In this document: positions 6,957 through 64,000 of the stretch, piece by piece
How positions within the stretch are numbered: the stretch's first letter is position 1
How the letters are laid out: every line of letters begins with the position of its first letter
Assembly (NCBI GenBank): GCA_905160935.1
Contig: CAJHZI010000446.1
Coordinates: 62,001-126,000 of the forward strand
Reading direction: 5' to 3'
Length of the DNA stretch: 64,000 nucleotides
DNA from: Enchytraeus crypticus
Taxonomy: Eukaryota; Annelida; Clitellata; Enchytraeida; Enchytraeidae
Position numbers and translations under genes: made by a program
Notes under the pieces: generated by a model
The model's database searches: none
What the model was told of the DNA's origin: nothing
Seen by the model: the letters and a program-made list of their open reading frames with translations, nothing else

Positions 6957-7074
6957 CGACTGGATTGTTCTAGAAGGTGTTGATGCTAGTGAATACTGGA
7001 TTGTTCTAGAAGATGTTGATGCTAGTGAATCGTGCAGGCTGTAAGACTGGAATGTTCTAGAAAGTGTTGATGCT
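6957..7074 (+). repeat. Three-unit direct repeat abutting the KDM6 start codon, each with TTCTAGAA
   Basis: Three diverged units of about 35-50 bp carry 'ttgttctagaaggtgttgat' or close variants. The palindrome TTCTAGAA lies at 6968-6975, 7004-7011 and 7055-7062. The last unit runs straight into the ATG at 7075. TTCnnGAA is the core of a heat-shock factor site, but function is only inferred. Confidence 0.6.
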
Positions 7075-61500: not shown

Positions 61501-64000
61501 TTGGGCTCGCCCGTCACTGATATTGCTTTAGAGAGATGGGACTGATGCTAATATCGGTTTTACATCCTTTTTACAGATTTTAAAATATATGGTTAGATGT
61601 CAAAACTTTAGTGTACTTACTAACATTAGTGTTTATTGGTTTTGCTATTATTTTTAGTTCACCTGTCAAGGTAGGCTGTAAAAACTATTAAAGGTTCATT
61701 TGTTTAGATGAAATTATTTCTTTTTTCTGTTTTGTTGAATAAAGAAATCCGTGACAATCTGCTAGTGTTTTTTGCGACTTATTTAACTTAAATTTATTTT
61801 AAATTAAATTAATTATTAATTAATATTCTAGAATTAATAATTATAATATATTTATAAAAGTTCTTTCTAAACTACTTTCTATTTACTAAATTTATGCTAA
61901 TTCCACACTGATAGACTGATTGATGTTTTCCTAAGATTGATTGGCTTCCCTGACATCATCCTGTTGCTATTATTTCAAACTTTATCAACTGTTATTTCTT
62001 TTACTTGTATTGCCTGTTTATTCCCTTTGCCTAGTTATTTTTCAGTTTGTGTAACCGAGGGGTGGTCAACTAGATAGGTTTCTTGTGACCTCTTTGATAG
62101 CCTTGTTTGTGTATGTCGCTGTATATTTTGAGTGTATTGAACTATGTTTATCTTTCTCTCCTAGTGTGAGGAAACTGACGTTAAGTCTTAATTATTGATT
62201 AATTTACTGATTGATTCATTGAGTGGTTGATTAATTGATTACTGAAGGCTGCCATTGCGTGTGACTATTACGTTGTTACGCGGCTATGATGGAATTTGAT
62301 GTTAAACTTGATGTGCGTTTGATTGTTGATAGAGAATAGAGAAAGTTTGGGAGCCATGGAGGGCATTGATGTGATACTACAGCAGCTGGCTGTAAGTATA
62401 TGCATATCCTTTCAGATAAATGATAATACAGCATCATAAATAATGGTGTATATAAATTGAGGTGTTCATACTAACTGATTGATCTGCTGACTGATTTCTA
62501 TTGATTGACCTTCTGGCTGATTTATTGATTTACTGATTAATTAATCTATTAATTGATCTACTGATTGACTGATCTATTGCCTGATTTACTGATCCACTGG
62601 CTGATTGATAGCTTGATTGATTGATTGATCGATAGATTGATTGATTGTAGACGTACAAGCGACATGACCAAGGCTCAGATTGATTGATTGATTGACTGAT
62701 TGATTGATAGATCGATTGATTGATAGATAGATTGATTGATTTATTGATTGATTGATTGATTGTAGACGTACAAGAGACATGACCCAGGCTTGATTGATTG
62801 ATTGATTGACTGATTGATTGATAGATCGATTGATTGATTGATAGATTGATTGATTGATTGATTGTAGACATACAAGAGACATGACCCAGGCTCTGATAGA
62901 TTGATTGACTGATTGATTGATAGATCGATTGATTAATTGATAGATTGATTGATTGATTGATTGTAGACGTACAAGGGACATGACCCAGGTTCAGCAGAGG
63001 AGATAGAGTACATGGAGAACCTGTTCAATGCTCTCTGCTCTGCTCTCATGATTGATAGATTGATTGATTGATTGATTGTAGACGTACAAGAGACATGACC
63101 CAGGTTCAGCAGAGGAGATAGAGTACATGGAGAACCTGTTCAATGCTCTCTGCTCCGCTCTCATGCTTCCAGCCAACAGAGGTCGCTTCCTACAGGGCGA
63201 GGGTATCCAGCTCATGAACCTCATGCTCAGGTCTCTGTCCACTCACAGTGCTCGATGTTGTTGTGTGTGTGTGTGTGTGTGTGTGTGTGTGTGTGTGTGT
63301 GTCTATATATATATATATATATATATATATATATATATATATATATATATATATATATATATATATATTATATATCCAAAAAGTGAAAGAATATATGCAA
63401 AAATCCACAATTGACTTGGGATGCTGTAATTAAGAAGGACATGAAAAATAGGGGATTGACTGATGATATGGTATTGGACAGAGAGGACTGGAGGAAGTCT
63501 ATTCTCGATTGATTGATTGTGTGATTGACTGTATTATTGATTGATTGATCGATTGATTGATTGTATGATTGATTGATTGATGATAGAGAGAAGAAGATGT
63601 CGCGCACCAGTGCTCTCAAGGTGCTCGATCATGCACTGATCGGTGCTGACGGCGTGGACAACTGTCAGAAATTTATCGACATCGTGGGCTTGCGTAGTCT
63701 GTTCCCACTCTTCATGAAGACGCCGCACGCCCATAAGAAGGCGGGGCCTAATAAGCAGCAGCTAGAAGGTGTGACTAAAATCTTGTTTACGATCTTTTAT
63801 TGTGCTTTTACTATCAGAAATTCTAGTATAACAGCGATGTTGCTGATAAACTTGTTTATTTATTGCGTTTTTTGTAGAGATTTACTAGTTTTAAAGTCAC
63901 CAATAAACTAATTTTTTTATTATTTGATAGAGTTTTACAGCTTTATTTTACAGTTGTCTGTTACGCCAAAGACATCCCCGATGTCCCTCAACAAATTTTT
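55563..64000 (+). CDS. CTNNBL1: CTNNBL1 (beta-catenin-like protein 1), 3' end beyond window
   Basis: Exons in frame: 55563-55592, 56157-56333, 56795-56901, 57589-57728, 58248-58345, 58699-58792, 59625-59716, 60567-60639, 62333-62391, 63082-63230, 63587-63768, and probably 63931 to beyond 64000. CTNNBL1 is an armadillo-like nuclear protein bound to CDC5L/PRP19 and U2-associated spliceosome factors. The start MNVSELLSFQ fits the family MDVGELLSYQ. A basic/acidic N-terminal region (RRKRRFDAEG) follows. Conserved blocks are LILQFEKRVQRNQEMRIKYP, FMESEVELNETLQELHVIAA, VPDLYHIVVELNAVQSILQL, AVIDLLQEMTDVDTLNESED, ALLVQNLDRLDENIKEEADG, NKLYCSELLSILLQ, YMENLFNALCSALMLPANRG, GEGIQLMNLMLR, SRTSALKVLDHALIGADGVD and LRSLFPLFMKTP. 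At least three exons (4, 6, 10) have partial tandem duplicates just upstream. About 370 residues are in the window; roughly the last third is missing. Confidence 0.94.
55800..56098 (+). mobile_element. (GA)n-family LINE C-terminus, truncated
   Basis: Encodes RKKSWIGHILRSESLLNEVI, then EGRMEGKRGRGRPRLGMLDD and LKIHSYMDMKRKV, a LINE C-terminal block of the GHxxR...GKRGRGRP type. The frame breaks before the usual [12 protein letters not shown] end. In CTNNBL1 intron 1. Confidence 0.82.
56985..57235 (+). mobile_element. (GA)n-family LINE 3' end
   Basis: The same coding end as at 55900-56098 but continuing to 'gtggaggcgttatatgccat', 'ggacttgccagtaggcagtg' and GAGAGA. It links the coding block to the short 'ggacctgccagtaggcag' fragments scattered in the window. 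In CTNNBL1 intron 3. Confidence 0.82.
57285..57588 (+). repeat. Tandem echoes of CTNNBL1 exon 4 acceptor
   Basis: The exon edge 'tgatag|GTTTATGGAGTCTGAGGT' at 57589 is preceded by four to five units of about 65 bp carrying 'gatagatttatggagtgtaa' plus 'ggtggaaatgaatga', separated by 'cattaaattgattgattg'. The match extends about 30 bp into coding sequence (through TTGAATGA). Confidence 0.9.
57838..57965 (-). mobile_element. tRNA-derived SINE, family A, minus strand
   Basis: 'agcgtcagtttcctcactcg', 'aaagcgatgtcagtgacggg', 'gtttgaaccccgcacatact' and 'atcaccactggctccatcc' are complements of the whole family. Confidence 0.8.
58530..58698 (+). pseudogene. Two partial duplicates of CTNNBL1 exon 6
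   Basis: The exon start ('acag' plus TTGTCTCAGCAGGTGCTGG) has two copies upstream at 58533-58586 and 58609-58662. They share 'agcaggtgctggctctgtta' and 'gtacagaacttggacaggct', keep the acceptor, but break off at GGATGA or GGATTAA into (TTGA)n without the exon's 3' half. Confidence 0.92.
58915..59295 (+). mobile_element. Family B element with long (GAT)n tail
   Basis: Full copy from 'tcgtgttgtgtccgggttgt' through 'gactgcatgtgtcgtagaag', 'aatgtcagaaagagcattcg' and 'ccctagttaaattgggatta', then about 125 bp of GAT/GGT repeats. Confidence 0.85.
59330..59624. repeat. (GATT)n / 'cagattgattgat' tract
   Basis: Imperfect GATTGATCAGATTGATT repeats directly upstream of CTNNBL1 exon 7, including 18 or so TGAT quartets. 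Confidence 0.85.
59890..60110 (-). mobile_element. Family B element with (GAT)n tail, minus strand
   Basis: 'atcatcatcatcatc', 'ttgaatcccagctcaaccag', 'ggtcgggatacgaatagact' and 'ttctggagcctaggcgctca' are complements of the family B unit. Family A/B numbering is mine. Confidence 0.82.
60728..61240. mobile_element. Inverted pair of family B elements
   Basis: A plus-strand copy (60728-61010) ending GATGATGATGA faces a minus-strand copy (61035-61240) beginning CATCATCATC, separated by about 30 bp of AT-rich sequence. The pair makes a roughly 250-bp inverted repeat in CTNNBL1 intron 8. Confidence 0.82.
61470..61560 (+). mobile_element. tRNA-derived SINE, family A, partial
   Basis: 'cggactgtggatcagtatgt', 'ggttcaaatcttgggctcgc' and 'ccgtcactgatattgcttta'; 5' truncated. 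Confidence 0.65.
62640..63081 (+). pseudogene. Four partial duplicates of CTNNBL1 exon 10
   Basis: The real exon starts 'gtag|ACGTACAAGAGACATGAC' at 63082. Upstream copies start at about 62650, 62764, 62868 and 62967. The first three stop after 25-30 bp ('gacatgacccaggct'). The fourth runs 90 bp, through 'atggagaacctgttcaatgc', and breaks in the middle of the exon at CTCATGATTGAT. All keep the TAG acceptor and are separated by (TTGA)n. Confidence 0.93.
63260..63370. repeat. (TG)n(TA)n microsatellite
   Basis: About 40 bp of GT followed by about 65 bp of TA directly after a CTNNBL1 donor (63231). Confidence 0.95.
63395..63505 (+). mobile_element. RTE-like LINE C-terminal fragment
   Basis: Encodes TWDAVIKKDMKNRGLTDDMV, then LDREDWRKS, the same block as the minus-strand LINE end at 41517-41770. 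In CTNNBL1 intron 10. Confidence 0.75.
63931..64000 (+). CDS. CTNNBL1: Probable further CTNNBL1 exon, cut by window end
   Basis: After 'tatttgatag' the frame set by the phase-1 end at 63768 is open to the window edge and reads EFYSFILQL then SPMSLNKF. It ends like the RLLNKF of human CTNNBL1 (from memory) at the right distance. Similarity in between is weak. Confidence 0.5.

Follow-up and report, generated by a model that had tools for sequence, protein, structure and literature searches.

Introns in a 64,000-nucleotide stretch of the Enchytraeus crypticus genome (the window in what follows; G000:C353:62001-126000) hold tandem copies, or "echoes", of the edge of a neighbouring exon together with its splice site. 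These echoes are real as repeats, and above chance; as features of splice junctions they are not above chance. They are minisatellite arrays that happen to cross an exon edge, here and in unrelated genes. A second repeat, the tetranucleotide tract (TTGA)n, is a splice-anchored class: it is found, in the sense orientation only, upstream of roughly one sampled acceptor in four, where it probably helps splicing. A preliminary description of the window had ascribed echoes to all six of its genes (KDM6, HMGB, SARNP, OSGEPL1, CTNNBL1 and CFAP418) and had offered three explanations: a local process duplicating the edges of exons, selection in favour of multiple splice sites and, as the null, a plain high rate of tandem duplication. 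The null accounts for the bulk of the echoes, because copies that span junctions show no significant excess there and arrays that cross junctions are fewer than random placement would make them.

The identity of KDM6 is given by a PDB match to UTY/KDM6A (2.3e-34), and Pfam matches back HMGB (HMG boxes), SARNP (SAP and Tho1/MOS11), CTNNBL1 (CTNNBL) and OSGEPL1 (TsaD); these five were modelled from reading frame, splice sites and phase. The models are free of internal stops once small edge corrections have been made, and, spliced, they yield open, conserved proteins. CFAP418, whose identity is weak (Pfam RMP, E = 0.008, below the cut-off), is not in the modelled set. Exon numbers used previously were paired, presumptively, with the present models by order. 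Seventy-one window junctions were tested (36 acceptors and 35 donors; the first exons of HMGB and OSGEPL1 contribute no acceptor). The outside sample comprises exons with Pfam Myosin_head or JmjC matches and their surroundings: 58 of 81 myosin hits were used, and the JmjC hits number 29, two of which are the window's own KDM6 and two others of which were left out. The resulting 83 hits gave 77 exon models (6 were without a candidate: 4 of 33, 1 of 25 and 1 of 25); removing the 6 models with scores below 5 left 71 exons, with 142 junctions. Outside exon edges were placed by codon score and by splice matrices limited to three intronic bases before the acceptor. The echo test is an ungapped self-match: a junction has an echo when the sequence across it is matched again on the intron side, at a distance of 10-600 bp, and the exonic part contributes at least 8 points to the match. 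Genome-wide counts refer to 524 Mb in 802 contigs.

By this test, 6 of 36 acceptors and 3 of 35 donors in the window have echoes. How often is the same thing seen away from junctions? At 600 random points in the same introns, and at the same threshold, copies were found at 23% (read acceptor-wise) and 24% (donor-wise). Spanning copies occur at 9 of the 71 window junctions and at 121 of 420 intronic points lying 60-330 nucleotides (nt) from a junction; for the 71 homology-anchored exons outside, the corresponding counts are 16/142 junctions and 102/842 intronic points. (Divided by boundary, window and outside together, 14 of 107 acceptors and 11 of 106 donors have echoes.) Since microsatellites are a feature of the introns, and exons are of complex sequence, the comparison was also made in complex sequence only, where no significant junction excess is seen either in the window (6/40 vs 62/371) or outside (12/109 vs 76/907, p = 0.37). 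Arrays called by Tandem Repeats Finder (TRF) occupy 32% of intron sequence and 6.3% of exon sequence in the window and cover 8 of its 71 junctions (outside, 11 of 142); those that cross a window junction number 7, compared with 15.3 ± 3.0 under random placement. Anchoring of the echoes at exon edges is rejected on the self-match counts and the complex-sequence control, in the window and outside it.

Several observations weigh against so plain a reading. 1) In complex sequence outside the window, the rate is slightly higher at junctions than elsewhere (11% vs 8.4%, p = 0.37). 2) A comparison of array boundaries with random placement, which the preliminary description had proposed, was made for the window and in part bears out its expectation: in 10 cases the end of a wholly intronic array lies no more than 10 bp from a junction, vs 2.1 ± 1.4 at random. 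By period, the counts are 7 vs 1.1 below 8 and 6 vs 1.4 for longer units; (TTGA)n tracts that abut acceptors are probably part of the short-period group. 3) Array cover in the window is about 0.5 at 40-80 nt inside introns and 0.22-0.33 deeper; outside, it is about 0.2 at 40-200 nt and 0.07-0.17 at 300-400 nt, a slope that is weak, not flat. Arrays blocked at exon edges, or insertions in mid-intron that dilute them, could generate such a slope. 4) The outside exons include some close paralogues, and training of the codon model used the window genes.

The abutting array ends and the cover peak in the window, with its weak counterpart outside, are what would be expected of a local mechanism (repair linked to transcription or splicing, for example, or template switching) that preferentially duplicates exon edges. 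That explanation, the first of those previously offered, is nevertheless improbable: spanning copies are not significantly commoner at junctions in either data set, and junction-crossing arrays are fewer than random placement yields.

What of the individual echoes? Eleven of the sixteen places previously named hold up:

17829..18001, plus strand: tandem copies of KDM6 acceptor 17977 and about 25 exon bases, with (TTGA)n; the echo spans the junction (score 30, spacing 118)
20765..20960, plus strand: array with KDM6 acceptor 20948 and 13 exon bases; junction spanned (TRF, self-match)
21510..21580, plus strand: copy of an internal part of KDM6 exon 21605-21822, 59/72 identical, in the intron before acceptor 21605, followed by (TTGA)n and the acceptor
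22707..22907, plus strand: 60-69 bp units of 36 exon bases and GTAAGT at KDM6 donor 22742 (TRF, self-match)
23973..24183, plus strand: 72-bp units with KDM6 acceptor 24160 and 23-24 exon bases; junction spanned (TRF, self-match)
24330..24650, plus strand: 31-bp array that starts at the end of the KDM6 coding sequence, in its last codons and the stop, 23/24 bases identical with one 4-base gap (TRF, alignment)
35734..36145, plus strand: 36 exon bases and SARNP donor 35769, with intronic copies (best spacing 346; self-match)
41771..42060, minus strand: array of 7 exon bases and GTTAAG covering OSGEPL1 donor 42054, 26/27 identical (TRF, alignment)
57236..57618, plus strand: 72-bp array of (TTGA)n, AG and 30 exon bases at CTNNBL1 acceptor 57589 (TRF, self-match)
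58488..58751, plus strand: at CTNNBL1 acceptor 58699, a unit of (TTGA)n, the acceptor and about 53 exon bases, present three times (TRF, self-match)
62678..63165, plus strand: at CTNNBL1 acceptor 63082, an array in which (TTGA)n and TAG are joined to as many as 87 exon bases (TRF, self-match)

The OSGEPL1 donor was missed by the self-match test because no more than 7 exonic bases are copied. Two further places stand in part. At KDM6 donor 19556 there are copies nearby, which have mainly the donor and intron start in common with it (score 19.3 vs a shuffled maximum of 15.9):

19590..19924, plus strand: 27-bp array of 12 copies, beginning 33 nt past KDM6 donor 19556, with units like the donor and intron start (TRF)

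At the putative KDM6 start, a 36-bp duplication at 6959-7030 is real; that this is the start of KDM6 is the preliminary description's own assignment. Two places find no support: HMGB exon 1 (score 10 vs a shuffled maximum of 12) and the last exon of OSGEPL1 (11.3 vs 16.6). The remaining one, at the stop of CFAP418, stands as a candidate, given the weak identity of that gene. Echoes are thereby verified in four of the six genes, HMGB being unsupported, and on both strands, as had been claimed. The self-match test adds a weak donor echo at 18979. The window also has two very long open frames on the plus strand, 7045-9636 and 14067-17330 (864 and 1088 codons), with internal minisatellites, one of which, at 8041-8534, has 23.5 copies of a 21-bp unit; these are possibly large N-terminal KDM6 exons.

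That the copies keep their AG or GT is borne out by direct reading at KDM6 22742 and 24160 and at CTNNBL1 63082 (this is not a full count), and one copy at 24160 is without its AG. Selection that retains multiplied splice sites, for redundancy or for alternative splicing, would account for such retention and for the greater richness in echoes of acceptors that have TTGA tracts (described below). It is very unlikely, all the same: junction-spanning copies are not in significant excess, in the window or outside, and the exonic part of a copy can be decayed, as in the 59/72 match before acceptor 21605. An assembly artefact (repeats collapsed or expanded) is less probable still, to the point of being negligible: long arrays are indeed difficult to assemble, but the copies differ by substitutions, and echoes recur on many unrelated contigs (the 16 outside junctions already counted). 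Other possible acceptor echoes were noted elsewhere in the genome, at three places where the acceptor-like GATTGATTGATTGCAG recurs over a few hundred bases (4 copies at G000:C139:215849-216326, 3 at C160:49944-50183 and 3 at C210:28555-28712), and a possible donor-side echo at G000:C146:498322-498832, where GTAAGTCTTACAATCAATCAATC is present in four copies and a one-base variant within 0.5 kb.

The (TTGA)n tracts are a different matter. In a 264-kb sample (the window, with 20 further stretches that either surround JmjC hits or adjoin the window, a non-random choice), TTGA is the top class of tetranucleotide repeat, with 91 clusters; the next class has 12. The 8-mer TTGATTGA occurs in window introns 109 times in the sense and 9 times in the antisense orientation. 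Among 106 acceptors of the window and the outside sample (one with less than 40 nt upstream was excluded), 25 have a sense TTGA tract in the last 40 nt and none has an antisense tract (0/106; binomial p 6e-8). Looked at from the repeat, a coding-like exon follows, no more than 45 nt downstream, at about 28 of the 91 TTGA clusters read in sense, at 1 of 91 read in antisense, and at 28 of 400 random places, with the reservation that clusters within one array are not independent. Besides those that form part of echoes, tracts at acceptors in the window include:

18858..18879, plus strand: KDM6 acceptor 18880, preceded by (TTGA)n that ends in CAG; self-match test negative for an echo
20221..20239, plus strand: KDM6 acceptor 20240, preceded by (TTGA)n; self-match test negative for an echo
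42259..42277, minus strand: OSGEPL1 acceptor 42258, with (TTGA)n in sense for this minus-strand gene
44071..44126, minus strand: OSGEPL1 acceptor 44070, with (TTGA)n likewise in sense for the gene
56772..56794, plus strand: (TTGA)n at CTNNBL1 acceptor 56795
63506..63586, plus strand: (TTGA)n at CTNNBL1 acceptor 63587

What might such a tract do? TTGAT matches the human branch-site consensus yUnAy (taken from PMC3116199) letter by letter. Single copies of TTGAT are also enriched: at the 79 acceptors that have no TTGA tract in the last 60 nt, 25 are seen between -45 and -3, vs 9.7 expected, and 19 of the 31 that start in the last 50 nt do so at -11 to -30. Genome-wide, the triplet on the 3' side of GATTGATTGATTG is CAG in 664 cases and CAA, CAC or CAT in 295 (CAG is at 6.75 times the mean of the three), and on the 5' side of TTGATTGATTGATT there are 198 CAG and 218 CAC plus CAT (1.8 times the mean); that these counts include tandem copies, and that the array patterns used for the two sides are not identical but one base apart, is the first of several points to be held against a splice signal of this kind. 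The others are that the window is TTGA-rich (13 of 36 acceptors, vs 12 of 71 outside); that UG-rich words (GTTGT, TGTTG) are the most strongly enriched 5-mers, above TTGAT, at acceptors without TTGA; that (GTT)n, which is not a yUnAy array, is likewise followed by CAG (391, vs 341 for three triplets); and that the reverse complement of (TTGA)n has an orientation bias of its own at donors, outside the predictions of the branch-site idea.

This last bias is one of (AATC)n, which is favoured after donors (7 antisense vs 1 sense of 106, p = 0.07); GTAAGT has AATC repeats within 20 nt 471 times and GATT repeats 200 times, counts that include overlapping matches and, among the 200, at least 12 from a single array (C333:399431-400230). 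The bias invites the thought that (AATC)n after donors base-pairs with (TTGA)n before acceptors, bringing the two splice sites of an intron together. Such pairing is improbable: of three window introns with (AATC)n near the donor (a small sample), none has (TTGA)n at its acceptor, and two of these three donor tracts resemble, to the eye, the tails of interspersed repeats.

Tails of interspersed repeats suggest another origin for the acceptor tracts themselves, as the ends of short interspersed elements inserted close to acceptors, and one repeated element does end in ...ACGTTAAATTCTTATTGATTGATTG. Any of seven element seeds, however, lies within 90 bp upstream of only 5 of the 91 TTGA clusters, and sense-only placement at acceptors would be left unexplained. 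Element tails are rejected as the main source of TTGA on the seed count, and the explanation as a whole is very unlikely. As to an introner or other mobile intron, whose body sequence would be shared by many unrelated introns, the observation is this same count, made with seeds of one known element. Repeated elements ending in ...GGAAACTGACGTTAA or ...GGACGTTAAATTCTTATTGATTGATTG were noted separately (L009-L028 and the window): of 38 end-seed matches, 4 are followed by a TTGA tract within 45 nt.

Are the two classes of repeat connected? Echoes are found at 7 of 25 acceptors with TTGA and at 7 of 82 others (Fisher p = 0.019); that this is a small sample, and one of several tests left uncorrected, counts against making much of the association. 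In the units at CTNNBL1 58699 and 63082, exon sequence is joined directly to TTGA tracts, as would be expected if the tracts seed duplications. An account that combines background tandem duplication with splice-anchored (TTGA)n acting as a branch-site-like array is likely to be right in the main. Its first element would be a high genome-wide rate of short tandem duplication and repeat slippage: slippage or template switching (the most likely route) would strew short tandem copies all through introns. A duplication spanning a junction would be tolerated when the surplus copy falls within the intron, since the GT or AG next to the exon, the original one, would still be usable, and the extra copies would afterwards decay; the same duplication inside an exon would mostly be purged by selection. 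The second element would be TTGAT as a branch-site motif of Enchytraeus crypticus, a function predicted from sequence. (TTGA)n would then be a slippage-prone array of branch-site-like motifs, continually generated at acceptors, and would raise local instability; acceptors made duplication-prone in this way would explain the greater frequency of echoes where TTGA is present. One can go further, and more tentatively, to propose that (TTGA)n branch-site arrays define the acceptor in about one-sixth to one-third of introns, and that slippage continually rewrites these acceptors, supplying duplicated exon edges from which new acceptors and introns might be made; the odds are somewhat against so strong a version.

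The echoes belong to an already known kind of structure, ordinary for a repeat-rich genome. In lancelets, "mirages", tandem repeats spanning exon-intron boundaries, are described in Adh3, globin, troponin C and PGBD5; both boundaries are affected, and regular splicing is reported to be undisturbed (PMC3087553, PMC3902484). The Enchytraeus echoes are like these in that imperfect units span an acceptor or donor and the adjoining exon edge, in several genes (PMC3902484), that copies often retain AG or GT, and that both types of boundary are affected. They differ in host lineage, in the (TTGA)n contained in several acceptor units, and in having been rated against the intronic background; splicing and length instability have been examined in the lancelet case only. 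A structure described in lancelets is thus extended to an animal that seems unrelated to them, and by the indication of the controls the echoes are explained by a high tandem-duplication background, with no mechanism specific to exon edges. Duplication at splice junctions also has a place in the AGGT model of intron gain, which is reportedly associated with Rogers. That model is named in a paper on intron gain in the potato RNA-dependent RNA polymerase (RdRp) gene (PMC4974935), in which, as here, tandem duplication over a boundary supplies extra splice signals; in potato the outcome is a new intron, whereas the present copies sit inside existing introns or after a stop. Splice signals are likewise repeated with a tandem unit in the dual-specific splice sites of the UBC type (PMC10809524), but those sites are used, and delimit coding monomers, while the echo sites are read from sequence alone. 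For (TTGA)n the nearest likeness is the UACUAAC repeats of Gomafu RNA (PMC3116199), also a tandem array of a branch-site-like motif; they lie in a non-coding exon and bind SF1, whereas the TTGAT arrays, known from their sequence, stand before the acceptors of coding genes. A literature search covering part of the matching publications found no report of TTGA repeats at acceptors. If the TTGA acceptor signal holds, it matters more than the echoes, and it is the part worth following: were a microsatellite to serve in splicing in this way, sequence of the most mutable kind would be tied to a core signal of gene expression, and the step from slippage to splice-site change would be directly testable in a sequenced genome.

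Some further observations were made in passing. In a mitochondrial contig, COX1 uses TGA as tryptophan, and AGA fits serine (by reading); the 4.3 kb around this gene, read by eye, give ND3, ND2, COI, COII and, after a gap of about 0.3 kb, COIII, the order ND3-ND2-COI-COII-COIII being what we take to be the annelid arrangement. A tRNA scan of this stretch under the bacterial code gave no match. In the window, open frames on the plus strand at 11493-12886 resemble the reverse transcriptase of a non-LTR (long terminal repeat) retrotransposon, as judged from the list of open reading frames alone. The first coding exon of HMGB seems to end, at 834/835 on the plus strand, in a GC donor (GGAAG|gcaata), which would make this a GC-AG intron, and a tRNA gene match (Rfam, 56.8 bits) lies on the minus strand at 47007-47078, upstream of the OSGEPL1 start.

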